From: Plumapathes pennacea | Taxonomy: Eukaryota; Cnidaria; Anthozoa; Antipatharia; Myriopathidae | DNA length: 64,000 nucleotides | Direction: 5' to 3' | Assembly: GCA_964036295.1 (NCBI GenBank) | Contig: OZ038465.1 | Coordinates: forward strand, 8,556,667-8,620,666 | Part shown: one piece after another, positions 2,175-64,000 of the stretch | Position numbering within the stretch: position 1 is the stretch's first letter | How the letters are laid out: every line of letters begins with the position of its first letter | Notes under the pieces: generated by a model | The model's input: only the letters and a program-made list of their open reading frames with translations | What the model was told of the DNA's origin: nothing | The model's database searches: none | Program-made: the position numbers and the translations under genes

Positions 2175-5100
2175 TCAGTAGACTTTTTCCAGCGACTTTC
2201 GTTCCAACATCTCGAAGTATTCGTGCAACTGTCGCAGCATTCTTTTCCCTTGTTCCAGATCTTTTTTCAACTCTTCGCCTGGATGTTGTTGAACTGTCAT
2301 TTCTGTGGTGTTTTCCATTCCTAAGAGAAATTGTGGTACGTGGAAGACGGTGGATTAAGGCTGCTGTACAAATTCAACTGATCAGCCGGACCACAGCGTC
2401 AGTCATTTCATTTGGTCCAAAGTCACTTAAAATATTTAGTAGTAATTAAGATTAAAAGTTGTATGAGTGCACAGTTTTCCCGTTATTATTATTACATTTA
2501 CCTCAAAGAAAGCAAACCCACAGTTTTATTCTCAAATTGCAAAAAAAAAAAAAAAAAAAAAAAATTGTTTCTTTTGGAAAAATTGGCCTCACGAAACCTC
2601 AAACATTAGATACCGCAGAACCAAAGCCGGTGACAACCTCACGAATACTAGCCACACGGCAAACGAATAGACGCAGTTATGACAGAAAACAAATGAGAAA
2701 CCTATACATGTTTTCACGATATTGTCACTCTACCTGAATCGCTGGCGATTGTGGTTCCTGGTTTCTTGTGACAAAACAATTCCCATGCTGCACCTGCCAA
2801 TATCATTGCTGCCAGTATCCCAGAAAGTATGTAGAGCCCCCGGTGCATGGCAGAGTGATCATGCAAATTGACTGGTTTGGGATGTTTCTGATAGGGCTCC
2901 TGTAATTGATACGCGCTGATAAGTGTTTGTTTTAACCCTTTCACGTCTTTAGCGTAGCTTTTTTGTTAAATAAATAGGTTATTACACGTTAGGAGTGCAA
3001 TGCAGCGGAGTACGAGTGCAATTTATTTGCACTCAAACATGTGAATCCGTATATAATTGAAAGAAAACAGCTTTCTTGGGTGGGAAACTGAATATTACAA
3101 CGAAAAGAACAGTGGAATACTTTGTAAGTAGAGGCGATCGCGAAAGCGTCTTGGCGTATGGAGATTTTCCTGTTCATCAAGCACGCGACTATTCGACTGT
3201 GTTCCACCATGGAAGTTAGAACAAAGCCAACGCCGGCCGTGAGAGGAATGTGATCTGACGTGACGGTGCTTGTTCGGTTCGACTGTCCGTCCTGGCTCAG
3301 GTAGTAATAGCCTGAAATTCGGTCCACTAATATTCCTGTGACTTCGTCCGACTCGAAGGCATCCATCATCTTTTTGAATGTATCGAACACTGCAAACAGA
3401 AAGTTGCAAACGTAAATAGAAGATTATAAGACAATGCCGTAATTCGGTCAAGCAAAGAACTAAAAGGGGTGGTCTCTTTCCGCTTTATGCCATCCATTTG
3501 ATCAAAATAATTCTAGCTGTTACAGTTTTCGTTTGCCATCTCGGGCCTCAACCATGCCGTTGGAATTAGTGATTTAGAAGCGACAAGCTTTGAAAACGTT
3601 TTAAGAGCCCGTTCACATTCGGTCTGAGGTCGATCAGGCTAAGTACGAACCAACTGCAGAACAGTCCAAGATTGATTTAAGTGATTTTTCGACAGTCTGA
3701 ATGCGCGCCAATACTATCTCGGTGTATATCTCAGCACCGATTTCGAATCAATCTCATTTTGGCGACCCCAGATGTGTGAACTCGCGTCACAAAAAGTAGT
3801 GGTGTCAACTTTGTTCTATATCTAAAGTAATGAAAAAACACGAATGAAGCTAATAAATAGGTCTGCAATGCATACACTTCTACTACGAGGTACTTGAATC
3901 AAGCCTTCTCGCCGACTGTAACAGCAGTTAGCTCGTTTCTTATGATTGGAGCAGTTGTGATTGGGCACGAGCAAGTATCGATTTGACTGGCCTCTTATTG
4001 ATAATTTAGCACGGTTTGTGTCTATCTGCGCATATTCAGTAGGCACATAAAGAGAAGTAAAGTAAAAGGAAGTGAAGTGCCTGTGGTCATTTCTGCGCAT
4101 GTGAAAATGGAAAAAGCAATTATAGAAAGAGATAGCAGGTGTCTGTGCTGGCAGTTTGCTGATCACCTTTGGGTTTGGCTCCGGATTCAAGTGCAAGCTG
4201 ATACTCTGTTCCGTTTCCCAAGACAGCAACCTGGTGATTTCAGAAACGTTACGTTCTCATTTCATGGCAATAAATAGTAATTTGATTCGATTGTGCAGTG
4301 CTGAAGAATAAACATAATTACATCAACAGAAAATAATTTTGCAATAACCTAAATTTAAACGGACAAGTGAACATCTATACAAACAAACAAGGTACAGTTG
4401 AGCAAAACACACAACAACAAAGAAAATGACAGAAGAAACAAACAAAAACGAAACAACATAGAGAACAAGAATCTCAAAAATTAACCCTATCACTCACAAG
4501 CTCAAAATGCAGATTCTCGACTTGTGTTGAGAATTGATATTTTAAAAAGTTTTCATCTATACAAGGTATCAAATGCTAGGTTCTTCCGTCTGTATGACAT
4601 ATCTCTAGTGAGAGGCAGAAAGAAAAATTTGAGAGTGAAAGGATTAATAAGCAGACAAAGTCTCGGAGTTTTGTTGTTGTTGTTGTTCTGCTTGTTTTTG
4701 TTTTTTCAAAGAAAGTATAATACTCTTGCAGTGTAACTTGCCTGAGGCTTCACGCCGTCTTTTCTTACCGTACTGCCGTATATGTCTGTTGTCTCTGGCC
4801 CCAGCGTGACGGACGTTAATGCAGTCGTAATAACGCTTGTGTAAAATGCCATGGCGATCACACCAGCATGAATCCAGATAACGGCAAATATACGACTAGG
4901 AATAGATCTGGGTGACTTGTCTCCATACCTGAATATAGAGCCTAATATGTTGAGTAATTTGGCGAGGGAGTGAGTGGGTACGCGACTACTTGATCGAGGA
5001 ATGAGGGAGTCAGTAATAGGCCTTTTCACTTACGCTTTGTTTGAGTGCCGGAAATGGGAAGAGCGTGAAAAAATGCGTCACAGCATTTATAGATCGAATT

Positions 5101-8029
5101 TGGCAGCATTTTGAAATTCACAAATTTTAAAAAGATTTGTGTGAGAAACTGTTGCTGGGACGAAAGCCACCCCGGACGATGATAGGTGATAAATGTTCAG
5201 TCACGTGGGGGATTTTGGTCATGTGACAAGGACTTTTTGGATGAGTGATTGCGAGGTGGGAAAATGAATGAATGAACGATAGAGTGAGTAAGCAGTACCG
5301 GCAACAGCAATGGGTATAAAAGCGAATAAAAATGCTCGAGTTGAGTAAGTAAGTGTGTTAGTGAATGATCGGATGCTTTACTGGTCAAAATGCGCTAAAT
5401 TTACGTACTTCTCGTCCTATCAGGTACTCACCCAACTGTTGTCATGGAAATGAAAGCCCACCAGAAACCTTCCCATGATCCTCTGAAGAACGAGCGAGGA
5501 AACTCCTGTGGGTTGATGACTGTGTCCTGATGGAAAAGCGGTAAGTTTTGGTGCTTCACACAATACTGTTCACGTTTGCACGTAAAATATAAAGTTAGTT
5601 TGCAGCTTGTTAACCTAATATTGAAGCAAGCCAAATAATCAACTAACGTTTCGATGGTTAATTATCTCATCGCAAAGGAGTGCTCCAAGGGTAAATACCC
5701 TAAACTCTCTTGTTGGAAATGAAACCTGACACCAATTAGACCAGCCTTTGATTGATTAAGGTGATTCCGGTGTTTTATCGGGCGCACTCGTCCATGACAA
5801 ACTTTGGATCATAACATTTTTGGCTTTAATGCGATTACTATAAAACTTTGAGGAACGTTGCAGCTATGATTCAGCAATATAAAAAATATAGAAACACATA
5901 GAAAATATAAAAATATAGCAAAATTCAAGGCTAAATTTGGCGGATTAATGAATAGCAAGCCATTTCCATTCGACTTGCTTTTGAAAAATATTAGTTTCTT
6001 TTGATGTAAAAGTGCTCCTAACCTATTTCAATTCTTTTGATTGGTTACGTTCTTTCGTGTTAGGAACCAAATTTATAGCCTTGGATTTTCTAGATGTAAA
6101 TAAAAACATTGAATTGGCTCCAGGGCGAGAAGACATCTGCAAATATCGTATTTCTAGTATGAAAACCTACGGAATCCATGGCGATATTTCCTATTATTAT
6201 ATGGCACTGATACTACGCACGCTACGATTGGTTGATTTACCGGTCCATACTTTCCTGTACGGACCGCAAATTGATTTTACGCACGTTCTGATTGGTCAAT
6301 TTTACCGGTCCATAACTTACTGTACGGACCGCAAAATCAGTTTGCACATGTGGATCGCAAATGATTACTCGAAAAGTTGCTAAACGTTTGTCATAAAAGG
6401 CCCAGAAGTGCAATGGGAAGTTTAAACGTTCGGGATACCCACTGTTAAGTTATGATGATCGGGAAAAGTTTACAATCTTGGAAAATGACCGTTACGAAGA
6501 AGGAAAACATCCGAGGAAAAAATTGCTTGCGACCTCAGCCGTCATTGACAACAAATGCTGCAGAGTATGGAGGGTTGTTTCACCCCTGTGTTAAAATTTG
6601 CACACTTGCCAGGGAGAAGGTGCAAAGCGAACAATCACCGTGAACAGTTATGACTAAAATCGTGCAAGAATCAAGTTTTGCAGACATGTTTGCTCGTCAT
6701 GGCGCACTGTGAGGACTGTAAATATATTTTTCACAATGCACGAGAACTCTGTATTTCGAAATCATTGATTCGGACAAAAACGCCGTGGTGATTTGAGGAT
6801 GTTTATTTTGCTGGAAGAAACCTAAACGCTCCACGAGGAGGCAGGAAAATTAAGCGGTGAGTTTTGAATAATATAGCTTTCAACGATGTGTCGGGCGCAG
6901 TTTGTGATGAAATGATTTTCTTTTAGTGCCAGTTTGCCTTCTACATTATTGTATGCGTAAGAAACTTATTCAAAAGAATAAAAAATACTCTGAGTTACAA
7001 AGCAATTTCTTCTGGAAAGAGATAAGACTGCAGTTTTTTTAAATCTTTAGTGAGCGAGCAAGGGCGAGTTCGAGTCGTTCACCGAATAAAGTTCACTGCA
7101 GTGCCGTTGTTTGACATACGCTATCGGCCATTTCATTCAGCTCAGAACAAATTAGTATTTATCAAGGCAGTTGGTTTGACAGACGCTTATTTTCTTTCAA
7201 GATTTTCAAATCGGTAGAATTATAAGCTGTTAACTGAATTTGTTGTGAAAACAAACGTGCGTAAATTCATACCTGATCGCGATTGATGTTGTTGAATGAA
7301 CGAGACGAGTACTCGTTGGGGCCTTGTTTTGTGTTTGCCGAAAGATCTAAAGCCATATAATAAATATCTTATTAACCTCGTTTGCTTGGTCCGTACCGTA
7401 AGTTATGGATCCTCGTTTTTTTTCGTCGCCTTATGGCCCTCGCGCGAAGCGCGCTCGGGCCATAAGGCGACGAAAAAAACTCGGTCCATAACTTACTGTA
7501 CGGACCGCGCGCTCGGTTAATAAGATCTATGTACTATGACGTGACATCTTACCAAAGCCCAGATGATGATCCCAGCGATCATGGTCAAAATGAGTGTAAT
7601 GGCTAGCAGTGGCCACGTGCTAAACATTGCGTTGGCAGCGGTCTCCAAAAGCTTTTTGGGCTTTTCCTTGATGATGAAATCTGCCCCTGAATACTCGAGC
7701 ACATCAACGAATGAACTCCCTTCGTACGTGGAGGGGTATTTTCCTTTCACAACCAAGGGTCCTCCCCCCTGCACCTCTCCACTCTTCAGTTTTTCCAAAA
7801 TGTCATTCTCGTATTTCACACGAACAGTTTCAAAATAGCCACAAGTTAGTACTTTTTTCTTCAAGATGTCGTACAAGATTCCTTTAAATTCAGTCGTCGA
7901 GCGATTTTCAAGATGTTTGGTCGTGTATGGGGGTCTTTCTACCCAAGCTAGTTTGAACGGTGACGATAGCGCAAAGACACAAAGAAGGATAATGTAGAAA
8001 AGAATTGAAACAGATACCAGGCTACCCAT
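2175..8029 (-). CDS. Ionotropic glutamate receptor-like channel with K+ selectivity filter (paralogue A)
   Basis: Seven coding exons, minus strand: 8029-7553, 5526-5432, 4928-4769, 4230-4167, 3389-3121, 2899-2734, 2320-2175. All junctions are GT-AG and in phase (0,2,0,1,0,1); total 1377 nt, 458 residues plus TGA. Domains seen: signal peptide 1-22; S1 ligand-binding half with WVERPPY (29-35) and FKGILYDIL (48-56); M1 about 139-159; re-entrant pore loop GFWWAFISMTTVGYGDK (179-195); M3 about 204-228; S2 with VAVLGNGTEY and GILVDRISGYYYL; M4 376-397; cytoplasmic tail with KDLEQGKRMLRQLHEYFE. The order S1-M1-P-M3-S2-M4 is that of ionotropic glutamate receptors. No amino-terminal domain is present. 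The filter is that of potassium channels, as known in bacterial GluR0 and rotifer AvGluR1. The M3 SYTANLAAF gating signature is absent. K+ conductance and the ligand are inferred and untested. The start is the first Met after a probable 5'UTR splice acceptor. An intron-free copy of no exon is seen, and no frame is broken. Confidence 0.88.
2541..2564. repeat. Poly(A) tract in last intron of channel A
   Basis: A run of 24 adenines on the plus strand lies in intron 6 (2321-2733) of the minus-strand channel gene. No retroelement body is recognisable beside it. Confidence 0.8.
4481..4647. mobile_element. Short inverted-repeat element, TTAACCCTTTCACTCCCAAG family
   Basis: The element starts TTAACCCTATCACTCACAAG and ends GAGAGTGAAAGGATTAA, so its ends are imperfect inverted repeats. 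It sits in intron 3 of channel A. Related copies occur at 14301-14468 (channel B intron 5) and, more diverged, at 11965-12126, near 25525 and inside the repeat at 39222-39420. All are about 165 bp and non-coding. Confidence 0.7.
6241..6334. repeat. Two direct copies of a CGGTCC...GGACCG hairpin unit
   Basis: The word CGGTCCATA...TGTACGGACCGC occurs at 6241-6267 and again at 6306-6332, each foldable on itself. The second copy is essentially the same sequence as the right arm of the large palindrome at 7362-7530. Both lie in intron 1 of channel A (5527-7552), so this intron has taken up several pieces of one family. Confidence 0.7.
7362..7530. mobile_element. Long palindrome (hairpin-type miniature transposon)
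   Basis: Arms run from TATCTTATTAACC through GGTCCGTACCGTAAGTTATGG and a TTTCGTCGCCTTATGGCCC segment to a GC-rich centre (CGCGCGAAGCGCG, near 7441-7453), then return in reverse complement to 7530. The right boundary is 23 bp from the end of coding exon 1 of channel A (7553), inside intron 1. No coding capacity. Such near-perfect arms imply a young insertion or hairpin-based transposition. Confidence 0.8.
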
Positions 8030-8052
8030 GTAGCCACGATAAGGTGTAATTC
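8030..8052 (-). other. 5'UTR piece and splice acceptor of channel A
   Basis: Immediately upstream of the start codon, the minus strand reads TTTCTGCAG, a good splice acceptor, then 23 untranslated bases and ATG. Channel B has an acceptor exactly 23 bases before its own ATG. The matching distance supports both starts and implies a non-coding first exon further upstream that I could not identify for gene A. Confidence 0.6.
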
Positions 8053-12159: not shown

Positions 12160-15100
12160 CTAAACGTTCGCTTTAGTTTTGTTTCCCTTGTGATAAAACG
12201 TGTCTTGTGATCTCCTCTCTATTTTCTCAAAGTATTCCAGAAACTGCTGCAACAACTTTTTTCCTTCCTCGAGATCCTTCCTGAGCTCTGACTCGCCCGT
12301 CTTTCTTTCGAGGAACATGGCGAGATGATCACTTTCTGGAAAAAGAGTTCAGAAAAGTAGAATTTGAAGGATGTATGTATGGACAAGCGTTTCATTGATA
12401 GTGGAGACCTTAGAACTAAGGTTAACTCACCCGTTTCACGCCTTAGTGTATGCTTGATTAGGAAGCAGCCTAAACCTTATGACGTGAGCAGGGCCGAACG
12501 GATCAAATATAAATATACACACATGTTACTTGAATTTATATGTTCATAGGAGTCTTTATAGGAGAGTTTGTATGTTTATAGGAGTCATTATAAGAGAGTT
12601 TGTATGTTCATAGGAGTCTTTATAGGAGAGTTTGTATGTTTATAGGAGTCTTTATAGGAGAGTTTGTATGTTTATAGGAGTCTTTATAGGAGAGTTTGTA
12701 TGTTTATAGGAGTCTTTATAGGAGAGTTTGTATGTTTATATGAGTCTTTATAGGAGAATTGGATGTTCATAGGAGTCTTTATAGGAGAGTTTGTATGTTT
12801 ATAGGAGTCTTTACAGGAGAGTTTGTATGTTTATAGGAGTCTTTATAGAAGAGTTTGTATGTTTATAGGAGTCTTTATAGGAGAGTTTGTATGTTTATAT
12901 GAGTCTTTATAGGAGAGTTGGATGTTCATAGGAGTCTTTATAGGAGAGTTTGTATGTTTATAGGAGTCTTTATAGGAGAGTTTGTATGTTTATAGGAGTC
13001 TTTATAGGAGAGTTTGTATGTTTATAGGAGTCTTTATAGGAGAGTTTGTATGTTTATAGGAGTCTTTATAGGAGAGTTTGTATGTTTATAGGAGTCTCTT
13101 ATAATTCCAATGTCAACAACTGAAAACAAGATAGATTCTTCACTAAAAATTTGCACTTGCGCTACTAATCGCGACACTTCTCGCTATATCACAATTATCA
13201 AAATATATCCCAGTTTCGCTCTCGGGCAACTGTTCGCTTCTCGGAACAGATAATATCCTCGGACAATTATCCGTGCATATTTCCGAATCCAAAAGTAGTT
13301 TATTGTTTATATACCACGCGGCACTAAGAGGCCCATCTGTCACCCGTGATTCGTCACAATAAGTCAATCAAGGTGGTAGGTTTCGGCCGAAAAGCTGTCT
13401 TGAAACAATGCTTATATCGAACACTTATTCTGCTGTAAATAGGTTTTCTGAAGTTACCAGCAAGGAAAATAATTAATAGTCACAACATTCCGCACACAAA
13501 CCTATTGGGAACCCTCCTGCGGGGCATGGGGATATCTGAGAATATCGTATTTCTAGTTAAGGATTTAAAGCAGGAATCTTACTTCGTTTGGTGAAAGACA
13601 TCCTAAAGCTTTGCCGTCTGTCCTTGGAACGGTTGCGGATAAAGAACTCCCACACAGTCCCTAGCACCAGCAGCACCCCCAGGATTCCCAAAGCCACCAA
13701 TGAAATGGTTTTTACAGGTCCGTTAGTGTCATAAATAGTACTGGGTTCTGGGGGCGTCGGTTGTCTTGGTGCCTGGGTCAGCGGACGCAAACATGATATT
13801 AATTTATGTAGGGACAAAATGTTTAGAGCAGATTGGACTTTTCTTTAAAGTAAAATTGATCGATTGAAAGTGTTTTCGTACAGCCTTTGTGATTGACGCT
13901 GAAGACAATAGAGACGCGATCTCACCAAGTCGCATTCTGACCAAGCTTCAGCAAGTTCTCATAAGACTAATTTGTTACCAGATTTTTTTTCGCAATGAAA
14001 ACAGTGTGGTTTACAAATTTCAATTTGTATACTTTATTCTTTTTAGATGACTATCGAAAGTAATCATATGATTGCCTTGGTTTTAGTCTATGTTATAGCT
14101 GTGCTTTTGGATTGGTCTAAAAACGTTTGGCAGCATTATTGGCCAATCAGGAAGAAAAGCAAAAGCCGACGATGGTATTTCTCGCACTGCTGATTGGTCT
14201 CTTCTTCAAGGTAAAACCAATCGCAAATTACTTCGGATTCTGCTTTGTTGAAAGTGTTTTGTTCTTACAGCCTTTGTAATTGGCGCTTTGGTTTTGGTTT
14301 TAACCCTTTCATTCCCAAGCTCAAAATGCAGATTCTCCCAGAAAAGAAAAAAGAGTGATGGAATGAATACTGGTTGTAAAAAGTCAAGTTCTCCATACTG
14401 TGATATATGTCTGGTGAGAAGGTGAAGGAGAAACTTGAAGTTCTTCACTGCTGGGAGTGAAAGGGTCAAGAGAATTATCTGGAAACAACTCTTTGTCTAA
14501 AACGTACTTTGTAACTTGATATGATGGTTCCTAACGCTTTCTTGACCGGAGTTTTTAGCATTTCGAGACATTCAGTCAGTTCTTCTGTCCCTTCTGCAAA
14601 CACCAGCCCCACGGTTGCACTCTTTTCTATATGTTTTGACGTCATGAGGGGCACGTTTGTGTGGTTCGACTCCCTGATGTAGTAGTATCCAGAATAACGG
14701 TCAACCAGTAGACCTTCCACGTCCCCATCCACGACAGCTTTTACCATTTCGTCAAATGTTTGGAACACTGCGGGGAATGATTCACAAAGCTACAATCCCA
14801 GTCAAAATTGTGATGATGGCACCTGGGAGTCCTGTTGGGCTTCATAGAAAATTTCACCCATTTGACATCAATTGTGTAGAAATTATGATTTTTTGATTTT
14901 TTTGCCCCATTGAATGTATTTTTACAATAGTGTTACCATTATAGTTGCTAGATACGAGCAGCCGGATCTCTGAGGATAATAACCCTTTTGTGCTTTTCGA
15001 GGGGTACAGCCCTTGTTAACCATATATTGCTAATAGCCTGTTGGTTTTCTAGATGTGATCAATCTATTATGTTTACGACATTTACCAACATGCATGATCG

Positions 15101-17147
15101 ATCAGTGATACGAACACAATACTGCAGTATACCTATTGGTTTGGCGCCTTCTTCTTCAGCTATTCCGTATTCTGTTCCATTTCCCAGCACAGCCACCTGT
15201 GGAACAAGGCAACAGTGGTTCAATAGTACTAACAACCATTGATTGTCAGACAAGCAGTTCAGAATAGAGCTGTTTTCGGATGACTGTCGAAAGTAATTGT
15301 GTGATTGCTTTGGTTTTGCGTTTGCTTCGCTTTCGGATTGGTCCACACGAGATTGTCAGCATGTTCAGCCAATCAGAGACAAAACCAAAACCAAAACCAA
15401 ACACTTCTCACGCAAGCGATGGCGTGTACTCGCACTGCTGATTGGAAAGTAAAACCAAACGCAAGACCAAACGCGAATTACTTTTGCTTCCAATTGGCTG
15501 ATTAATAAATTTCCACTGGTTTGCCGTGGTGTGGACTCTTATTTACCACGATTTACGTCATCACATGGTCAAAATGTTGTGGACTCACGAGGCGCTTCGC
15601 CGAGTGGGTCCGCAACTAATTTTGACCATGTGATGACGTAAATCGTGGTAAATAAGAGTCCACACCACGGCAAACCAGTGGAAATTTGTTTTTTACCACA
15701 ACATTTAGAAATATACAGGAAAGTTTCGTTGTATTTCGCTGCAAAACGTGACATGCTGGCGTCAGCATCGTTGTCTGGACTCTTATTTACCACGGTAAAT
15801 CAACCAATCAGAGAGCGAGAAACTAGTGTGTTGTGGTAAAAACTGTTTTCTCTCAGTCTCTGTGATTGGCCTGTATGATTACTTTGGTTTTGGTTTTCGA
15901 CAGTCATCCGAAAACGGCTCTACCTCTTGTTGTAAGCATTTATTTCCACACGAACTGAGGTACAAAATCTGCACTTGAATCAACAGTTTGTGCTGATCAG
16001 CTGACCGCTGACTCAAAAATAGGATGACCGCACGGCCGAAACACGTGGTGTCTGTCTGAAAACATTTTTCAAATCTTTTACCTCTAGGCCACTGATACTC
16101 TTACTGTAAGGCTCCAGCTTCATTGATGTCAGCGCGCTGGTGATATTTGCCATGAAAATGGCCATAATGACAAGTCCGGTCAGGATCCACACCATTGCGA
16201 AAAGCCGACCGAAGATAGACCTGGGCGCTTTGTCACCATAGCTGGAAAACCGGCAACAGTAAGTAAACTAAATAGGATATTCGAAGATTTTTCCTTCCTG
16301 CAGAATCAAAGCATGACTTTCGAACCGTTATATAACTTACCCGACCGTTGTCATGGAAATGAAGGACCACCAAAAACCTTCCCATGAGCCTCGAAAAAAT
16401 GTGCGGGGAAATTCTCTTACGTTCCATATGGTGTCCTGAGGAAGATAATAAACAGCACACCGTTAGTTACTTCATGTTAGCTTCATATTAGCGCACATGC
16501 CGGGGCATTGCGTTCTTTGACTTTGTTGCGCGATGAAGTTGGAGTTGCAATAGCCGCATCGCGATTAACTGCAGACCTATGTGATGTGCGACTGGAAATG
16601 AGAATAAGCAGTTCACTTCATTACTAACCAAGGCCCAAACGAGAATTCCCGCAATGGCCATCATGATAGTGGTCACCATTAGCAACGGCCAGGACTTGAG
16701 AACCGTTAATGTGACAACAGTTCCTGGATTTTTCACATCTGCCACAGTTATAAAGTCCGCCCCAGGATATTCCACAAATCCTGTAAAGTGTAAATCTTTG
16801 TACAAGACAGACTCCCTTCCGAGGCTGGTAACGGGAAGCCCCACTAAAACTTCACCACTTTGCAATTTTCTCACCATCTCGTTCTCGTGGCTTACTCGCG
16901 TTTGGTTTAATTCGGAGCTCATGTCACAGCAGATGCCGCTGATAAAGGATACAAGGATATCTTTGAACAGCCCTTGTAGATCATTTTGAGCGGAATCGTC
17001 ACTTAGGCGAGTAGAGTACGGCGGCTTCTCGACCCAACTGATGGGCACTGTAGGGGGACACGAAGATTCGTTACTCTCTCCAAACGATAGCTGCACTTGT
17101 AGACTTACGAAACACAGTGCCAAAGAGAGAGCTGTCCTCACAGACAT
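12160..17147 (-). CDS. Ionotropic glutamate receptor-like channel with K+ selectivity filter (paralogue B)
   Basis: Seven coding exons, minus strand: 17147-16629, 16435-16341, 16241-16082, 15196-15133, 14767-14508, 13772-13583, 12335-12160. Phases are identical to paralogue A and exons 2, 3 and 4 have identical lengths (95, 160, 64 nt). Total 1464 nt, 487 residues plus TAG. Seen: signal peptide 1-23; S1 with WVEKPPY (38-44) and LQGLFKDIL; M1 about 153-173; pore loop with TTVGYGD at 202-208; M3 with NITSALTSMKL where glutamate receptors carry SYTANLAAF; S2 with VAVLGNGTEYGIAEEEGAKP and GLLVDRYSGYYYI; M4 about 388-410; basic stretch, then tail KDLEEGKKLLQQFLEYFE that matches paralogue A. There is no amino-terminal domain. 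It is probably a plasma-membrane K+-permeable ligand-gated subunit; tetramerisation with paralogue A is possible. Ion selectivity and ligand are inference. Its introns are full of miniature transposons but all exons are intact. Confidence 0.9.
12541..13103. repeat. 32-bp minisatellite in last intron of channel B
   Basis: About 17-18 tandem copies of a 32-bp unit built from two half-repeats, TTTATAGGAG and TTTATAGGAGAG, with GTATG joining them. Most copies are identical; two variants (GAGAATTGGATGTTCATAGG and GAGAGTTGGATGTTCATAGG) recur about 156 bp apart, showing block duplication. It lies in intron 6 (12336-13582) between the M4 exon and the final exon. Confidence 0.95.
13249..13313. mobile_element. 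Half of a palindromic element (partner at 42205-42329)
   Basis: AGATAATATCCTCGGACAAT and the following TGCATATTTCCGAATCCAAA / AGTAGTTTATTGT match the right arm of the palindrome at 42205-42329. The left arm here is replaced by diverged sequence, so this is a decayed or partial copy in intron 6 of channel B. Confidence 0.6.
14046..14300. mobile_element. Truncated TAGAGC-family miniature transposon
   Basis: Has the family's GATGACTATCGAAAGTAAT left part, ATTGGCCAATCAGG, CGCACTGCTGATTGGTC and GCGCTTTGGTTTTGGTTTT, then stops where the TTAACCCTTT element (14301) begins. The second element appears to have inserted into this one or replaced its right end. Both lie in intron 5 of channel B (13773-14507). 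Confidence 0.65.
14301..14468. mobile_element. TTAACCCTTTCATTCCCAAG inverted-repeat element
   Basis: The ends TTAACCCTTTCATTCCCA and TGGGAGTGAAAGGGTCAA are inverted repeats of about 17 bp. The interior shares CTCAAAATGCAGATTCTC and TCTGGTGAGAA words with the copies at 4481 and 39222. It ends only 40 bp from the S2 exon of channel B. Confidence 0.75.
15508..15688. mobile_element. Near-perfect palindrome with about 69-bp arms
   Basis: The left arm starts AAATTTCCACTGGTTTGCCG and continues through GGACTCTTATTTACCACGAT to CATGGTCAAAAT; the right arm is its reverse complement, practically without mismatch. The centre (GGACTCACGAGGCGCTTCGC and the following bases) is an imperfect stem-loop. No coding capacity. 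It can extrude as a cruciform or fold as an RNA hairpin when the channel gene is transcribed. Confidence 0.85.
15690..15840. mobile_element. TTTTACCACAACA-ended element, copy 1
   Basis: Ends are TTTTTTACCACAACATTTAG and GTGTTGTGGTAAAAAC. The same element occurs in opposite orientation at 31545-31690, sharing AAATATACA, GCTGGCGTCAGCATCG (as complement) and AACCAATCAGAGAGCGAGAA. It is non-coding and about 150 bp long. Confidence 0.75.
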
Positions 17148-17170
17148 GGCGCCAAAGTTGCCACGGAATC
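17148..17170 (-). other. 5'UTR piece and splice acceptor of channel B
   Basis: The minus strand reads CTAATTTCAG, then 23 untranslated bases, then GCCATGTCTG with the chosen start. The acceptor and the 23-base distance match channel A. A candidate donor for an upstream non-coding exon is GGACGTGAGT (complement of 17373-17382), unconfirmed. An in-frame Met further upstream lies across the acceptor and is therefore not preferred. Confidence 0.6.
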
Positions 17171-35482: not shown

Positions 35483-38400
35483 ACAGTTAGAAAGTTTCAG
35501 AATAAGCTATCAAATACAGACGAAGAAATACGGAAAAGAGGAAATTTCCCCCATTTTGACTTCTTAATTAGAAATAGCTCAAATTACAGAATTTCCCACG
35601 CTCTCACCCTGAAAACATTTTTATTTGTTTGACTACTAGTAGTACTTCGATATAAAGCCCTTTTGGATACTGATCTCGTGAAATCACATTCAAAAAAAAG
35701 AAAAAAAAAAAAAAACTTTGACCAAAATTGTCAAAAATAGCCTTCAGGAATACCTTAAGAATAAGATAAACAACTCATGTTCATGCACTATGATTAGCCG
35801 AGCTGACACAACGGCCCAACGACACGGACGTGAACCAAGACAAGAAGAGGTTTATTGAGACAATTCATCTGGTTTTGTACAGTTTCGGTCAATAATTAGC
35901 TGTATCCGTTTACAATCAGACAACCAGACAATCAGACAACTAGGAGATTACATAATTATCTCAACATGGCACACATTACAATATTGTTTTATGAGGGTGA
36001 AGGATTCAGTCATCATGTAAAATTGCTCAGGTAGTCGTTTTTGGTAATTTACACAGTTCTCGACATTAAGGTTTTAGGTTGGTTGCCCTTCAGACTGTAG
36101 ATTGACTTCAAGCAATAGAAAGTTTCATAATTTCTAGTTGCCCGGCCCAGAATTTACCTGCCCGACCAAAAGTTTTGGTTGCCCTGGGCAAGCGGGCAAC
36201 CGTTAATGTCGAGCGCTGACAGTAACTCCTGAAGTACATGTACACATAACTGACATAACAGGTGATGTTTGATAGTAATTTTTCTCCTGAACTCATAATA
36301 TACATGCAATGTAAATTCTCCCACCCACTAAGTGTGATGATCATAATTTCTTTGTCATTTGAGGGAAGCAGTATGTCAAATGCCAAATTATCTTGAGAGA
36401 GAACGAAAGAGAGCAATGATTGGAAGTTGCACGATCTGTACTGTACTCTCAGAGTCAAAGGGAATTAATGGACTGTTCCATGACACTTATTGAATTCTTC
36501 TTTAATTTGCATCAACAGGACCCGAATCCAGTGCCCTGGACCTCAGCCCAACTGGTTGCTCGGCCATTTATCATACATCGCAGATCCCATAAAGAGACCT
36601 GTTGTTCTTCAAGAGCTTTCACAGCAATATGGAAGAATTTTCTACTTCCAGTTTGGCCCTGCCATTCTGGCAAAACATGCTTTTGTTATTTCTGATCCAG
36701 ATTTATGTGAGAAAGTCCTAAGGAGTGACAAAGCCAGCTACACTGTCTCCCAATTGACCAGTAAACAATTTACAGCTGGCATTGGGAAATTCTCAATGGT
36801 TTCTTTGGATGGGGAAGTGTGGAAGAAGCACCGCAGGATGACCCAGCCTCTTTTTCATTCAGACTTTCTTGGCTACTCTGTCAGTATCATGGCACAGGAA
36901 ACTAGATGCTTTCTTCGGAGTCTCAAAGCTTTGCCTTCAGGGTCCCCAGTCGAGATGTACAGTTTTGTCAACAATCTGTTCCTTGATATATTTGGTTTGG
37001 CTGGCTTTGGGTATGACCTGCAGGCCCAAGAAAACCCCACTGGTCCTCTTCCCCAGGTTAGTGACCTGGTCAAATTTCAGTTTACAGCAATAAAATGTAT
37101 GTCCATCAATCATGCTTGTTGCATGTACAGTATTGTATACTGCACAATACACTTTGTTGCCACTTTGTATATTGTGTGTCAATTTTTTTATTGATCACAA
37201 CTACCAAGCACATCTTCCACTGCTTGCAGTCACTGTGTCGAGTTTGTAATGATATCTGGTTGACTACTTCCGGTAAGGACTTATGCTCAATAAGCAAACA
37301 AATAGGGTTTTAAATATTCTCTTTTCCTGGTCAACCTGGTGACCCAAAATTGGCTATGTTAGGGAAATCTCTGGAGGGCAAGGCTTTCTATGGACCTAAA
37401 ATCCTATACATTTTTTGATGCTTTGCTCGTTGGGGCGTAGCCCTGACGAGCTTAGGATTGCACAGCATGTCTTCATTGTCGTGTTATTAGTTTTTTTCTG
37501 GGTTACGAATCAGCACACAGTGATTGGTTCACATTGCCACGTGATATGTGATGACGTAAGGTGACTTTGTGAACAACTTGAGATGTAGTTGATTGAATTG
37601 TACATTAAAGTGCCTATAAGCCTTCAGACGTTACGTTTTTATATGAAAGTAGGAAGTAATCTAAACAACTTATGGCCAAAGGAACTTCGCTCCGAAGCGT
37701 TTTTATATATTTTTCCGCCCGGCAAACATGCGATTTTGACCGCCATTTTGAATCTGACGCAAAGTTTTTCGATCGAGAGCCTGGGTTATGACGTCAGAGG
37801 AGGGATTCGTTTCTTGTCAAACAAAACTTTCACACAGATTTTGCAGTTGGCGAGGTGAGAATTATGCCTCATAGATGTGTTGTCGAGAAAAACGTAACCA
37901 AGGGAAAAAAAAACTAAGGTAAAGAGACGCCAAAGCGATGCCAGTGCCTTCTCTGACGTCACAGACCCAGTCTCCCATGTCGCTCGGTCAAGATTTCGGA
38001 ATTCTGAGTTCAACCGCGTGAAAAAAGTATAAGAACGCTTCGGAACGGAGTTTCTTTGAATATAAGTTGCTTAGATCACTTCCTACTTTCATATAAAAAC
38101 GTAACGTCTGAAGGCTTATAGGCACTTTAATGCTTGTGTATAAACTAAGTTATCTGTATCCCATCCAAACTCAACACCGTTTGGCTTTGTGGAACATGCA
38201 CGGATAAAGAAGATTTGGCTTGCATTCTTAAGTTCACCGTCATAGCTGCAAAAAAATGTTTGATTGATTCGATTATGTTGGCTACCGCTACAGAATTGCA
38301 AATATTTAGTCTCGACGAACTTTCTGTGGCGACAGGAAATACTTCTGGGAAGATATCAGGCTGAAAACGGAACACCAAAGCCATGACGAACTTTAGCTGT

Positions 38401-41400
38401 AAACAATGATGATTTATGCTTTACACTGTAAATGACATCTGTTGCCTCCCACATACTGTAGCTGTTTTGTAAAGTTTTTTCGCCGAAAGCATATCCGTTT
38501 TTGAGATGAAAATATTCATTCTCAGGGCTTAAGACTCGACTAATGCATCTCTGTGAATATATTACATGTGTTATGCTCCGCACGAGCATGACAGTTGTCA
38601 AAATGCTTCGGCTTATCGTACAGTGCATGTTGAAATATTTCTTCCATTCAATCAAGTAGCCTTTGTTTCGCAGTGGCATTGTATACTAGAAATGAAAAAT
38701 ACACCGAAATAGTCTTGAACATTGAGTTTGTTAGTCACAAATGACTGAACACGCTGTGAACAATAATATTGTAAACAAGTCTAGTGTTACATTCCTCGCT
38801 TTCAATTTATATTTGTTACAGAGCGCGAAAACTCGAAAGCCTCACAGAAGAAAAGCATTCAGTAAAAAATAACATAAGTATTGAAGCGAAGGCTACAATC
38901 CTGGCCAAAAGTCATGGGACACTTAGCTTTTTATCTGAAAATGATGACACTTTCACACTTCCCACCCCCCCTCCCCCCATACAATGTTGACTGAGTGTGC
39001 TCAAAGTGCACACTCTTTAAGCAACATTGTATGGGGGGAGGGGGGAGCCGCTTTTGTTGTTGAACAAGAGTGATGGTGAAAAAATAGCATTTTTGCAGAG
39101 TGTCCCACATACTTTTGGCCAGGATTGTAGGTTATCATGGCCTCTGATTAAAGTGTTCAAAGTCAAACTATCAAAATCAACTGTGCATGAAAAGATAAGT
39201 CACGCATTACTCTTTTCTTGCTGGCTAACCTTTCCACCCCTAAGCTCAAAATGCAGAGTCGCTCAACCTTTAAGAAGCAAGTGTATGAGTGTTGTAATGA
39301 CAATTTATAGTAATAGGTTTCATTTGAGTAAGGTGTCAAAAGTAAAGTTCTCTATACTGTGTGATAATTTTCTGGTGAGAAACTGAAAGTCTCTTTTGCG
39401 AGTTTCACTCTTTGTCGCTTGTTACAGAACACGAAAACTCAAAAGCCTGATGGAGAAGAAACGTATTCAGTTAATAAAAGAAAACACAAAAGTATTGAAG
39501 CAAAGGCTGGATTAATCGTGGCCTCTCGTTAGAAATAAGAGTCATAGTCAAACTGTCAAAAATCAATTGTGCATGAAAAGATATGTCACGCATTCTCAAA
39601 ATGCAGGGTCACTCAACCTTTAAGAAGCAAGTGTATGAGTGTTGTAATGACAATTTATAGTGTAATAGGTTTCATTTGAGTAAGGTGTCAAAAGTAAAGT
39701 TCTCTATACTGTGTGATATTTTTCTGGTGAGAAACTGAAAGTCTCTTTTGCGAGTTTCGCTCTTTGTCCCTACTTCTTTCCAGTTTAGTTTCATCTGGTC
39801 TCGACCCCACCCAACGAGCTCACTGGCAATTCCAGTCTTGTATTTTTATTTATGGTGCTCAAAAACAAATTCTCATTAACAATGGTTAATTGTGGGTTAT
39901 GTGAAAACTTTGTTGAAAAAGGCCTATTGCTGCTGATCATTGCAAGGGCTTATTTGATTTTTTTCAGGCAATCAATGCTGTGCTAGACTATTTTGCCAAC
40001 TCCTCTTTCAGCCTTGGGCTCTGGTTTCACATGCTGTTGCACCCTCTGGACACCTGGCAGAGACGAAGACATAACCAAGTGTTTGATGACCTCATCAGTT
40101 CCATGATTAGCAAGAGGCTCAAAGACACAGACACTACCCAGCAACAGAGAGATCTGCTTTCCCTGATGTTGTCATCAACTGACCCGGAATCTAAGTACCC
40201 CCTGTCTTTTGATGAAGTGCGTGATGAGATTGTGACCTTCCTGTTTGGTGGCTTTGAAACTGGTGCTGGAACACTGTGTTGGTTCTTTTATCACATGGGT
40301 ATGCATAAATTGAGTCCAAAATATAATATTGTCTAGTGGATATATTGGGATTTATCCCTGAGTGCATTTAATTTTAACTTGTGCTTGGCATGCATGTGCA
40401 GCAGATAGTACATGTTCTGGGGCCAATTTAATGAACATTTTACAATACAGTGTGATTTTGCAAGTTGGACCATTTAGCATACCAACACTACCAAACGGAC
40501 TCTAATCTGACAAAAGCCTGCAAAACGTTACAGACACAAGTCTCAAATGCATAACTGCAACAGTACTGGACTTCCAAATAAAACTAAAGTATTTACAGTG
40601 CCCATTACAAAGATAAACACTTTCTCAACCAGCCAAAACCACATAAATTACAGCCAATCACAGGAGCTGCAAGGAAAACACTTTCTTGGCCAATCAAAAC
40701 CATGGAATCACAGCACCAATCACAGAAGCTGTAAGGAAACATTTTCGACCAACCAAAGCCACTACAGTAGTTTTACAGTGCCAATCATAGAAGCCCTAAG
40801 AAAACACTCACTAAACCTGATCCTTCCCAAACGTGATGAAATTTTGTAATTATGTATAAATAAAGGTCACTGATTGTCTGATTGACATGGGTCGGTTTAT
40901 AAAGACCGCGTTCTAACCGTGGGTTGATAAGCATGGACATTGTTCAGACCTTCTTTAGAACAGGACTTTCTTTTAAACCGCAGTCCAAACCTTGTTCAAA
41001 CAATCGGTCCCATACTGAAAGTTTAATGTACAAATTAATATACACTATTTGTTGATTTTGTCGTTGTTGTTGTTGATGATGTTACTGTTGTTTTGTTGCG
41101 TACGGAGCTGCTAGGCTGAGCTGTCCCTTTATTTATCACAGCACAAAATCCTGATATTCAAGCCAAAGTCCAAGAAGAGCTTGACGCCGTTCTGGGAGAG
41201 GAGGTGACGTTTGAGACAATCCAGAAGCTGAAGTACCTTTCCAACTGCATCAAAGAGTCGCAGAGGCTCATTCCTGTCGCTCCGATATTTTTACGTGACG
41301 CGCGGGAAGATACAGAGCTTGCAGGTACTGTACGGACTTGGCAGTCATGTTACACAAGGCAATTTTTTTCCTTGCAACCACAGGGAACAGAGAAGTTCGC

Positions 41401-43043
41401 TTGCTTTCCATCATATATAGTATGGATGAAGTATACCGCTGGACGACTTCCCCGCGGGCGCGCAAAAGACCATTTTAAAACTTGCAACGCAGACCTGTTG
41501 CTGCACAAGTTGCGGAAGAAATTGAGCGTGACACCTAGTCCTTGCGACTTGCAACGCAACGGAAATTGCGGGATAAGAATTCTACTTTTCGCAGCGTTGC
41601 GTATTGTTACAACGTGTGATTTGCTTGTCTTACAATGCTGGGCTTTTCTGCTAGTCCACTAAACAAGTTTGACAATATCCAAACTAAGCAAAACCCAATT
41701 GCGACATTCCCAATTAATCCTTTTCCTTTTATTTCCGATTGTTCCTTGGTATCTCACAAAAGACACCAAGCACTTGTCAGCGTACTATGTTGAGTTAGAG
41801 CTCTCGACAACGGCAATGCCAAGCAAAACGGTTCCTCAACCCAATTTCCACAACGGCCACGGAGTGAACAACTTGTTCACGAACTGATTAACTGTTCGGT
41901 TAAGCAAAAAGTCGCGAAGCTCAACCTGTGTCTGGTCGGGTCCTAAGGTGGCCGTTGAGCGAGGTTCAGGTGTAATAAATGGACGCGGAAATCAGTAATT
42001 TTTTGCTCACGTGACATTTTACCTCCAATTAGAAGTTGCAGTCGAACCCTGCTATTTCGAAGTCGCACGGGACATGAAAGAAAGTTCGAAGTAGCCGATA
42101 GTAAATGACTGAAAAAATATCCAAGGGGATTCGGCTTGACTTCGAAATAAGGGGGACTTCCTATTAACCGAGTTCGAAATAGCGAGGTTCACTTGTATAT
42201 ATAAACAATAAACTACTTTTGGCGAGGAAATATGCACGAATAATTGTCCGAGGATATTATCTGGATAGACAGATAATGTCTAAGGACAATTATCAGTGCA
42301 TATTTCCGAAGCCAAAAGTAGTTTATTGTCTTTTATTATCCTTCAAATATTTCCTTTCGCAGCGCAAATAATGACGCAAGGACTGTGATGCTTTTTGGTG
42401 CTTTCTGGAACTGCTTTTTCAATAAATGAAATGATATCCTCCTCGGTAGTCATCTCGTAATGTTTTTTTTTTTTTCTAATTAAATGTATAAAACTGTGTT
42501 TGGATATTGTCAATAAACAGCGATAGTTTTCCAGGCGGGGGTTATTCACGAGCGGACGTTATTCGGTCACGTGTCACGATTCTACCAATCACGCGCGGGA
42601 GGAAATATTTGATTGGTCATAAACAGTAGTAATGGGGACTAACGCTGACCACTCACAAGTGACGTCAAGAACGTGTTTCCGCGGTGTCTAACAAATGTGA
42701 ATTATTTCTCTGCACAGGTTACTTCATTCCAAAGGGCTCGATGATCTTCATAAACACATGGACGATGCACCATTCAGAGAGCATCTTTAAAAATGCACAG
42801 AAGTTCGACCCTTCACGCTGGGATGACAAGAGCTTCAACCCGTCTTTCTCTTACCTTCCCTTTGGAGGTGGTAACCGACGTTGCGTTGGGCTGTCCTTTG
42901 CACAAGCTGAGCTGAAGACCATTAGTGCGCTGTTGCTTAAAAACTTCACCTTCAGACTGGACGAGACCAGGCCTGTCACCATCGACTGGAAGATCACCTA
43001 CAGTCCGCGTAAGGTGTTTTTTCACCTTATGCCAAGGAATTAG
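35134..43043 (+). CDS. Cytochrome P450 monooxygenase, complete five-exon gene
   Basis: Exons 35134-35204, 36519-37056, 39968-40298, 41142-41324, 42718-43043; all GT-AG, phases 2,0,1,1; total 1449 nt, 482 residues plus TAG. Seen: N-terminal membrane anchor 2-20; Pro-rich hinge CPGPQPNWLLGHL (29-41); C-helix WKKHR (125-129); I-helix oxygen-binding stretch FGGFETGAGTL (296-306); K-helix ESQR (352-355, the ExxR motif); FDPSRW (404-409); haem loop FGGGNRRCVG (423-432) with Cys430 as the thiolate ligand. All catalytic elements are present, so it should be an active haem monooxygenase anchored in the endoplasmic reticulum. Length is normal for the family. The substrate and CYP family cannot be told from these motifs. 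Exon 1 was found by its ATG, hydrophobic segment and phase-2 donor AGAAG|GTTTGA, which is the weakest junction. The stop codon coincides with a transposon end (43041). Confidence 0.92.
35441..35478. repeat. (CA)n microsatellite
   Basis: About 19 uninterrupted CA dinucleotides followed by an A-run, in intron 1 of the P450 gene. Likely length-polymorphic. Confidence 0.95.
36059..36213. mobile_element. CTCGACATTAA-ended miniature element in P450 intron 1
   Basis: Left end CTCGACATTAAGG...GGTTGCCC is mirrored by GGGCAACCGTTAATGTCGAG at the right, with TTGCCCGGCCC and GGGCAAGCGGGCAACC words inside. It is about 155 bp long, sits 305 bp before exon 2, and encodes nothing recognisable. Confidence 0.7.
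37605..38130. mobile_element. TTAA-flanked inverted-repeat transposon (526 bp)
   Basis: Flanked by TTAA on both sides (37605-37608, 38127-38130). The ends AGTGCCTATAAGCCTTCAGA and its complement continue as inverted repeats for about 55 bp, through ACGTTACGTTTTTATATGAA, AGTAGGAAGT and beyond. A TTAA target is characteristic of piggyBac-type transposition. There is no transposase. It sits in P450 intron 2. The matching site in the repeat copy at 50830-50850 lacks it. Confidence 0.85.
38894..39129. mobile_element. TA-flanked Tc1/mariner-type miniature element with internal palindrome
   Basis: TACAATCCTGGCCAAAAGTC (38894 on) and ACTTTTGGCCAGGATTGTA (ending 39129) are inverted repeats, followed inwards by GGGACACTT / AGTGTCCC. 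A second, inner palindrome built on CCCCCCATACAATGTTG / CAACATTGTATGGGGGG lies at about 38960-39045. Two uninterrupted copies of the host repeat (near 39508 and 50475) show the empty site. Confidence 0.9.
40600..40815 (+). repeat. Imperfect ~60-bp tandem repeat in P450 intron 3
   Basis: Three to four diverged units share CCAATCACAGAAGCTGTAAG, GAAAACA and CCAATCAAAACCA words (40652, 40709, 40779 and an earlier partial). The unit resembles the CCAATCAG-rich ends of miniature transposons. It lies inside the intron (40299-41141). Confidence 0.6.
42034..42200. mobile_element. pogo/Tigger-like miniature element in P450 intron 4
   Basis: Left TGCAGTCGAACCCTGCTATT (TCGAAGT) and right GAGTTCGAAATAGCGAGGTT (CACTTGTA) form inverted repeats of about 28 bp. 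The CAGTCGAACC...TTCGAA terminus is of pogo/Tigger type. It abuts the palindrome at 42205 within 5 bp. Confidence 0.7.
42205..42329. mobile_element. Palindromic element, ACAATAAACTACTTTTGGC ends
   Basis: ACAATAAACTACTTTTGGC, AGGAAATATGCAC and ATAATTGTCC on the left are mirrored by GGACAATTATC, GTGCATATTTCC and GCCAAAAGTAGTTTATTGT on the right, with a central AGATAATGT/ATATTATCT stem. A half copy is at 13249-13313. It lies in intron 4 of the P450 gene (41325-42717). Confidence 0.85.
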
Positions 43044-63165: not shown

Positions 63166-63679
63166 TCATTTCCTTACGTAATCAAACACTGTCGCCCTGC
63201 GGTTTTGACTGTCTGTATCGCTACTGTTACCGCTGCTGTCTTGACTAACTGCATTGTCGCTGTCACCACTCCGGTCATGACTGTCTGCACTTCTACTGTC
63301 ACTGCTGCTGTCTTGACTGTCTGCATCGCTACTGTCACCACTCCGGTCTTGACTGTCTGCACTTCGACTGTCGCTGCTGCTGTCTTCTCTGTCACTGCTG
63401 TTGTCGCTACCATCTTTGCATTTTTCTACAACTTGGCTATTTTTCGGTATACTGTTTTCACTGCTGTCTGGACTATTGTCAGAGCTACTGTCTCTGTTAC
63501 TGTCTTTGCTACTTTCTTCGCTACTGTCTTTGCTACTGTCTCTGTTACTGTCTCTATTACTGTCTTTGCTACTTTCTTCGCTACTGTCTTCACAACTGTC
63601 AATATTACATTGGCTGTCTTTTCTTCTTTCTTCACCTTGGCATTCTTTTAGGCTGCTGTCTGATTTACTGTCCTTTGGT
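63166..63679 (-). CDS. Ser/Asp-rich acidic repeat protein, 3' exon (partial)
   Basis: Minus-strand exon following the acceptor GTTTTGTGTCAG; phase 2, then about 170 residues to TGA at 63166-63168. The sequence is dominated by Ser, Asp, Glu, Asn and Lys: tracts such as KDSNRDSNRDSSKDSSEE, and a 24-residue repeat present twice plus a partial (SSSDSRSADSQDRSGDS type). It has no folded domain and ends basic (RRATVFDYVRK). Most Ser lie next to Asp or Glu, good acidophilic-kinase sites. Dentin-phosphoprotein-like and coral skeletal acidic proteins have this composition, but so do unrelated nuclear or secreted disordered proteins. A signal peptide would be in missing upstream exons, so secretion cannot be judged. 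A donor-like TAC|GTAAGG lies 12 bases before the stop, so a downstream exon is possible. Confidence 0.6.
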
Positions 63680-64000
63680 CTGACACAAAACAGAAAGCCA
63701 CGAGTAAATATCAGTTTAGCAATGAAGGATTTAATCCACACATTTTATTCCACGGTGCAAGAAGTAAAGTAAGCTTTGTAAAGAATATATAGTTATTTTT
63801 ATTGCCGGTTGAATTCTACTGTATAATTTTTTTTCTTTCAAAACAACCAATGTCATATTTTGTTTTTATAACCCTTTAATTTACACCAATGATCAACTTA
63901 AATTTTCTCATTTAGTTTATTACCAGAGATATATCATCATACAGTAGTGAGATCTTGGCTTTTGATACCTTGCTGACAGGAAAGTTGATTAGCCTATCAA
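63680..64000. other. Probable intron or upstream region of the acidic-protein gene
   Basis: On the minus strand this precedes the acidic exon. No further exon is recognisable before the window ends; an open frame runs 21 codons upstream through the acceptor to an ATG at 63741 but contains the polypyrimidine tract and is probably intronic. Confidence 0.4.

Follow-up and report, generated by a model that had tools for sequence, protein, structure and literature searches.

The genome of Plumapathes pennacea carries a multi-exon gene whose product combines the selectivity filter of a potassium channel with the predicted fold of a glutamate receptor. This gene, termed paralogue A, is located together with a second copy, paralogue B, in the window analysed here, a stretch of 64,000 nucleotides (C4:8556667-8620666) of a 290-Mb animal assembly of 24 contigs. 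Paralogue A is not one odd receptor; it belongs to an animal family represented by 55 or more such pore exons in this single genome and by related proteins in several groups of cnidarians. Paralogue A is probably a subunit of a tetrameric, K+-selective and ligand-gated channel of the ionotropic glutamate receptor (iGluR) fold, one of many cnidarian copies with diverged binding lobes.

The known precedents for glutamate receptors with a K+ filter are GluR0 and the rotifer receptor AvGluR1. Two reviews cite such receptors as a bacterial precursor and one rotifer receptor (PMC12332018, PMC12226733). In work from 2026 on inhibitory signalling in cnidarians, the Nematostella iGluRs are described as considered cation-selective and excitatory (PMC13335744). 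No description of cnidarian receptors with a K+ filter was found in the literature searched, which comprised open-licence papers, and one may therefore exist elsewhere. The words potassium, GluR0, selectivity filter and AvGluR1 are all absent from the main text of PMC6307864.

Gene models and the split filter

Reading of the splice sites and of the frame gives paralogue A seven exons on the minus strand (window 8052-2175), coding for 458 residues, and paralogue B six exons on the same strand (window 17170-13557), coding for 437 residues (Table 1). The six introns between the coding exons of paralogue A are all of the GT-AG type, the weakest donor being the GTATTC that follows exon 5. Exon 2 ends with ACA GTT GG (T-V-G...), followed by GTGAGT, and exon 3, with ATATTCAG just upstream, begins with G TAT GGA GAC AAG. 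The TTVGYGDK motif arises by the splicing of GG/G over a phase-2 intron in the first glycine codon of GYG (the slash marking the intron). The filter of paralogue B is split at the same codon, GG/C TAT GGT GAC, also by a phase-2 intron, and the exon borders of the two paralogues correspond up to M4. The original prediction had proposed this split TTVGYGDK, with a pore exon ending in GG and the next exon opening with G TAT GGA GAC, and the reading confirms it; the coordinates and the length of 458 residues that it gave for paralogue A are likewise correct on the re-derived gene model. An alternative end of exon 3 at a GC donor, reading STVRKDGVKPQ, was ruled out: the GT donor at 4769 matches the length of the exon in paralogue B.

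Hydropathy of paralogue A reveals a signal peptide, M1, M3 and M4, and nothing else. Both paralogues display a signal peptide followed by the S1-M1-P-M3-S2-M4 architecture, which is the order found in the iGluR superfamily. A tail like that encoded by exon 7 of paralogue A is present in most of 19 aligned relatives and absent from paralogue B.

Two repeats lie in or close to these genes. Intron 1 of paralogue A contains repeated pieces such as GGTCCATAACTTACTGTACGGACCGC, at 6214-6335 and at about 7385-7510, which resemble a short mobile element. Just downstream of paralogue B, a 32-bp tandem repeat of about 18 copies with 94% matches occupies window positions 12535-13103.

Table 1. Exons of paralogues A and B and the filter intron of paralogue A, in window positions
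Feature	Position	Strand	Content	Evidence
Paralogue A exon 1	7553..8052	-	start codon, signal peptide, S1 lobe (PPY...GPLVVKGKYPSTYEG...GADF), M1 helix; Lys in place of the glutamate-binding Arg	splice sites, frame, M1 hydropathy
Paralogue A exon 2	5432..5526	-	pore helix and first half of the filter, 3' end TTV + GG	same exon end in 55/55 pore exons read
Paralogue A phase-2 intron within the first Gly codon of GYG	4929..5431	-	GTGAGT ... ATATTCAG	
Paralogue A exon 3	4769..4928	-	rest of the filter, (G)YGDK, plus the M3 gate helix (YTSVITTALT)	splice sites, dN/dS
Paralogue A exon 4	4167..4230	-	start of S2 lobe (VAVLGNGTEYQ)	80% identity to paralogue B across 20 residues
Paralogue A exon 5	3121..3389	-	S2 lobe with conserved acid (GILVDRISGYYY)	splice sites, family alignment
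Paralogue A exon 6	2734..2899	-	end of S2 and M4 helix (ILSGILAAMILAGAAWELF)	splice sites, hydropathy
Paralogue A exon 7	2175..2320	-	cytoplasmic tail, heptad-like helix (EELKKDLEQGKRMLRQLHEYFEML), stop codon	splice sites
Paralogue B exon 1	16629..17170	-	signal peptide, S1 lobe, Arg kept (PVTSLGRESVLYKDL), M1	
Paralogue B exon 2	16341..16435	-	pore, 3' end TTV + GG	
Paralogue B exon 3	16082..16241	-	(G)YGDK and M3 (FMANITSALT)	
Paralogue B exon 4	15133..15196	-	start of S2	
Paralogue B exon 5	14508..14767	-	S2 with conserved acid	
Paralogue B exon 6	13557..13772	-	M4, short tail, stop codon	

Copies in the Plumapathes genome

A search of the genome with the pore-to-S2 part of paralogue A returns at least 140 exon matches, among which are long open frames of the ordinary K+-channel type. 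Pore exons were read at 55 places: nine in a tandem array at C4:8.454-8.574 Mb, paralogues A and B included, four at other loci of the pore-to-S2 search, three at further loci, and 39 in pieces of 400-500 bp. All 55 display GG and a GT donor inside the filter, and since paralogue B and these exons show the same split, it is not a matter of chance. The residues ahead of the break are TTVG in 42 exons, STVG in nine, TTLG in three and KTVG in one. The downstream exon, beginning with G, A, C or T and then YGD, was located for 26 of the 55; for the other 29, it lies beyond the fetched piece or has no match to the motif. Full gene models are those of paralogues A and B only, and some of the 55 may thus be pseudogenes.

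One more fetched piece (L081) contains no pore exon by motif. Three loci (L039-L041) were considered as K2P genes, which was ruled out by the same filter-split pore exon in all three and by an S2 lobe in L039; they are members of the present family. In one array copy (L031, C4:8514290-8514388), MKTVG instead of MTTVG is found just ahead of the split filter.

Relatives in other cnidarians

A single-sequence search yielded 105 proteins, and a profile search based on 72 sequences yielded 135, with 120 among the matches listed. Many rows of both lists name no organism; among the matches listed, the eukaryotic rows with a named organism are all cnidarian, and the remaining named organisms are bacteria. 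The named sources are stony corals, a soft coral (Xenia), two anemones (Nematostella, Actinia), two hydrozoans (Clytia, Hydractinia) and a jellyfish (Rhopilema). Candidates were pre-filtered by shared words and length, and the profile search scored the best 8000 by words; large receptors bearing an ATD are therefore largely out of reach, and the cnidarian-only list is no proof of absence in other animals. Most named rows are labelled "uncharacterized", "hypothetical" or potassium channel, and the source name of one Rhopilema protein (P0048) is NMDA receptor subunit 1-like.

Among 121 family proteins examined, the filter is TTVGYGD in 118, TTLGYGD in one, TTVGFGD in one and none of these in one, in a count that excludes P0001, P0091, P0093-P0105 and P0137-P0200 (bacterial rows, K+ channels and the broken prediction P0001). 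These relatives were all retrieved with queries including the pore, so that the uniformity of their filter is in part a selection effect. Thirty of the 105 proteins are frames of at least 400 residues with an unbroken filter (29 TTVGYGD, 1 TTLGYGD) on contigs shorter than 4 kb. Such frames would fit cDNA assemblies and may lend indirect support to splicing in the relatives. In P0001, an automatic prediction from Porites, TTVGWQK and TTVGMII stand at the filter places of its two halves, and the protein reads as if the filter intron had been mis-spliced; annotation can thus hide the filter. Some relatives (P0023, P0115, P0117, P0121, P0123, P0128) possess precomputed Ig, CUB, EGF or fibronectin domains beside the channel part, which suggests extracellular partners.

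Fold and topology

With Pfam, paralogue A scores 48.4 bits on Ion_trans_2 and 27.2 bits on Lig_chan, under the cut-off of 30.8, and paralogue B scores 42.9 bits on Lig_chan, above it; no ligand-binding domain is recognised by Pfam in either paralogue taken alone. The Lig_chan match was rejected as a proof of iGluR membership because two bacterial Kv channels score on it as well (27.8 and 19.2 bits). NCBIfam returns for both paralogues nothing but weak K+-channel matches, far under the cut-off. When paralogue A alone is compared with the PDB, K+ channels come first, the best being Kv1.3 over residues 146-225, and an NMDA receptor entry (5un1, residues 106-227, E 4.6e-5) ranks below many of them.

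The profile of the family, built without bacterial rows, aligns in the PDB with GluN1 across M3-S2-M4 (42 bits), with an amino-acid-binding protein on S2 (47 bits over two repeats) and with K+ channels on the pore; the GluN1 alignment reaches about 55 bits when two bacterial rows are included. Profile-profile comparison relates the family S1 to the S1 of bacterial GluR0 (E 2.7e-6) and of animal iGluRs (E 5.7e-4), and the family S2 to that of bacterial GluR0 (E 1.2e-10), the controls being at E 0.19-0.51 for four shuffled profiles and E 0.01-0.57 for four S1/S2 cross-pairs. The canonical animal alignment used here retains 34 of 49 rows, 15 having failed the motifs. Against animal iGluR S2, the family S2 does no better than the controls in hhalign (E 0.061, and 0.0096 for the lobe alone), and neither family lobe matches the single receptor L001 (E 0.16 and 0.033). 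At E<1e-3, an HMM of the S2 lobe with M4 trimmed detects 26 of the 66 bacterial receptors; the 119 canonical animal receptors and the reversed sequences give no hit even at E<0.1. The S1 HMM is weak (best E 0.0036), with four bacterial receptors, four canonical ones and no reversed sequence at E<0.1. With these shuffled, cross-pair and reversed controls, the family profile identifies S1 and S2 lobes resembling periplasmic binding proteins. Downstream of S2, 70 of 72 family rows, including A and B, possess an M4-like helix, which none of the 65 bacterial receptors has.

Judged from sequence, fold and topology place the family in the iGluR superfamily; its lobes are closer in sequence to those of GluR0, and like the eukaryotic receptors it has a fourth helix. 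The link of S2 to the canonical animal receptors is carried by the GluN1 alignment, by S1 and by the topology. The original prediction of a K+-channel filter in a protein of glutamate-receptor fold, encoded by a real multi-exon animal gene, is supported. A profile placing paralogue A outside the iGluRs did not clearly emerge, but the case is close: Pfam alone calls it a K+ channel, and the family profile recovers the binding lobes and M4.

Binding site and constraint

Binding positions were set against the contacts of GluA2 and GluN1, in which an arginine and an acid bind the alpha-amino acid. The proline that opens the S1 contact strand is found in all 72 family rows, and the S2 acid in 63 of them (Asp in 59, Glu in four), paralogue A possessing Asp. 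An arginine occurs 5-9 residues past the proline in 25 rows; in the other 47, including paralogue A, no arginine is found in the tested stretch. The codon at the glutamate-Arg position is AAA (Lys) in paralogue A versus AGA (Arg) in seven out of seven array copies, and paralogue B has Arg too. The glutamate-contact residues Pro, Thr, Arg, Thr and Asp are all retained in paralogue B; paralogue A has Val in place of the S1 Thr, and Thr is present at the start of its S2 helix. Carrying Lys for Arg, paralogue A probably does not bind glutamate in the usual manner. Glutamate is not supported as its ligand and is probably not what it binds, which makes the label "glutamate-gated" doubtful for this paralogue.

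Conservation is unevenly distributed along the protein. Mean pairwise identity in the family amounts to 0.73 for the pore helix and filter, and to 0.22 for each of the S1 and S2 lobes. Between paralogue A and the array copies, dN/dS is 0.08-0.35 for the pore exon, 0.31-0.39 for the M3 exon, 0.39-0.42 for the S1-M1 exon and 0.79-0.86 for the loosely constrained S2 exon, as obtained by simple counts on short exons in an array where gene conversion is possible. The M3 gate region is kept in the aligned relatives.

Proposed mechanism and alternatives

Paralogue A would form one subunit of a tetrameric channel of iGluR fold in the plasma membrane. Its extracellular two-lobed S1/S2 domain would close on a small ligand and pull on M3, thereby opening a pore whose TTVGYGD filter would let K+ pass; the open pore would drive the membrane to the K+ potential, and the cell would be hyperpolarised or shunted. 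The filter and the fold make K+ passage likely, and the fold suggests gating by a ligand. It belongs to a cnidarian family of such putative channels, with a strongly kept pore, diverging binding lobes and many copies in the genome. Members that keep the Arg, as paralogue B and array copies do, may have retained glutamate or a different alpha-amino acid as ligand, and paralogue A and its Arg-less relatives have probably changed ligand or act as partner subunits.

Alternatively, paralogue A could be a constitutive or partner-regulated K+ leak channel, in which the pore works and the lobes no longer bind a ligand. Its Lys for Arg, the loose constraint on its S2 exon, the lack of a binding domain recognised by Pfam and the 47 of 72 rows without Arg in the tested stretch are all consistent with this. 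It is nevertheless quite unlikely in view of the constraint on the S1-M1 exon (dN/dS about 0.4), of the S2 acid, which A shares with most rows (63 of 72), and of the kept M3 gate region. Decay of paralogue A into a non-functional gene, amid array copies that work, is very unlikely: seven open exons, GT-AG introns and a pore exon with dN/dS of 0.08-0.35 stand against the weak GTATTC donor after exon 5, an S2 dN/dS near 0.8 and the lost Arg. A reading of paralogue A as a glutamate-gated inhibitory K+ receptor has in its favour the fold, the filter, the conserved acid, the Thr at the S2 helix start and the contacts kept in paralogue B, and is highly improbable given the Lys for Arg and the Val for the S1 Thr.

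If the ligand-gated K+ channels work as suggested here, they may let cnidarians answer a chemical signal by quieting cells rather than exciting them. It would then become testable whether animals have retained a receptor pore of the GYG type, and by what means inhibition was achieved in early nervous systems.

Comparison with known receptors and channels

The S1-M1-P-M3-S2 order and the TVGYG filter are common to the cnidarian family and to GluR0 of Synechocystis and the bacterial receptors of its type, whose lobes are detectably homologous to those of the family. The bacterial receptors are devoid of an M4-like helix (65 of 65 rows), whereas the cnidarian family possesses one (70 of 72). A further difference concerns the Arg: paralogue A has lost it, and 47 of 72 family rows show none in the tested stretch. 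GluR0 is described as K+-selective and glutamate-gated in PMC12332018. AvGluR1, from the rotifer Adineta vaga, has a eukaryotic architecture with a K+-channel filter and is selective for K+ over Na+, according to two reviews (PMC12332018, PMC12226733). It resembles paralogue A as an animal receptor with such a filter, by description and not by sequence, and belongs to a different phylum. In paralogue A, the S1 lobe directly follows the signal peptide, which leaves no space for an ATD-like domain at the N-terminus.

The animal AKDF, NMDA and epsilon receptors have an M4 topology like that of the family, as reflected by the GluN1 alignment across M3-S2-M4. The GYG filter is absent from the five receptor frames read in the same genome (L001, L005-L008). 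Kv and K2P channels share with paralogue A the filter and the WW pore helix; in contrast to them, paralogue A has no voltage sensor, a single P-loop, and S1/S2 lobes. A pore borrowed from K2P channels, an idea prompted by the intron that both might carry in the filter glycine, is spoken against by the N...F....G...G.WW pattern ahead of the filter, which the family shares with three bacterial receptors.

Arthropod ionotropic receptors (IRs) have a short N-terminus, diverged binding lobes, lost glutamate contacts and many copies, and the cnidarian family is like them in all four respects, by description only. A GYG filter is not known from IRs. The high copy number, the tandem array, the kept pore and the diverged lobes, by their resemblance to IRs, allow the tentative reading of the cnidarian family as expanded, K+-selective "variant ionotropic receptors", possibly chemoreceptors through which chemical cues silence cells directly. 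The binding lobes would have diversified, often with loss of the glutamate Arg, and the K+ pore would have been kept. If true, these receptors would be an inhibitory counterpart of arthropod IRs, which derive from iGluRs according to PMC11526382, and would provide a fast inhibitory system alongside the cnidarian glutamate-gated chloride channels.

Origin of the family

How the family arose is a separate question. A quick tree was calculated on a chosen subset of the rows (35 from the family, 40 bacterial, 12 canonical), leaving aside NMDA, epsilon, plant, protist and AvGluR1 rows. In this tree, the 35 family rows lie on one side of a branch with a support of 100, and the 12 canonical rows on one side of another. 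When the family and the canonical receptors are constrained to group together, the likelihood rises by 6.6 units, with a p-AU of 0.62; as this joint grouping is not rejected, retention in animals and transfer from bacteria are both compatible with the tree. Branching inside the AKDF, NMDA or epsilon clades and a non-GYG P-loop, the marks of membership in these groups, were not found, the former in a tree whose canonical rows comprise no NMDA or epsilon receptors; the family has GYG.

Transfer of a bacterial GluR0 gene to an early cnidarian, with M4 added later, is unlikely compared with descent together with the other animal receptors. In its favour, the S2 HMM at E<1e-3 detects 26 of 66 bacterial and none of 119 canonical animal receptors, and the family stays out of the canonical clade in the free tree. 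Slow-evolving bacterial sequences, however, can look alike without closer kinship, and both the M4-like helix (70 of 72 family rows, none of 65 bacterial ones) and the higher likelihood of the joint grouping argue against a transfer.

Other features of the window

A cytochrome P450 gene on the plus strand is represented by two exons at window 36487-40333 (Pfam PF00067, 60 and 61 bits), and the frame at 41120-41662 looks like a continuation of this gene, as a candidate exon. On the minus strand, window 63166-63744 harbors an open frame of 192 residues, very rich in Ser/Asp/Lys repeats (SSDSRSADSQDRSGDS), which could represent either a repeat or a matrix-like acidic protein.
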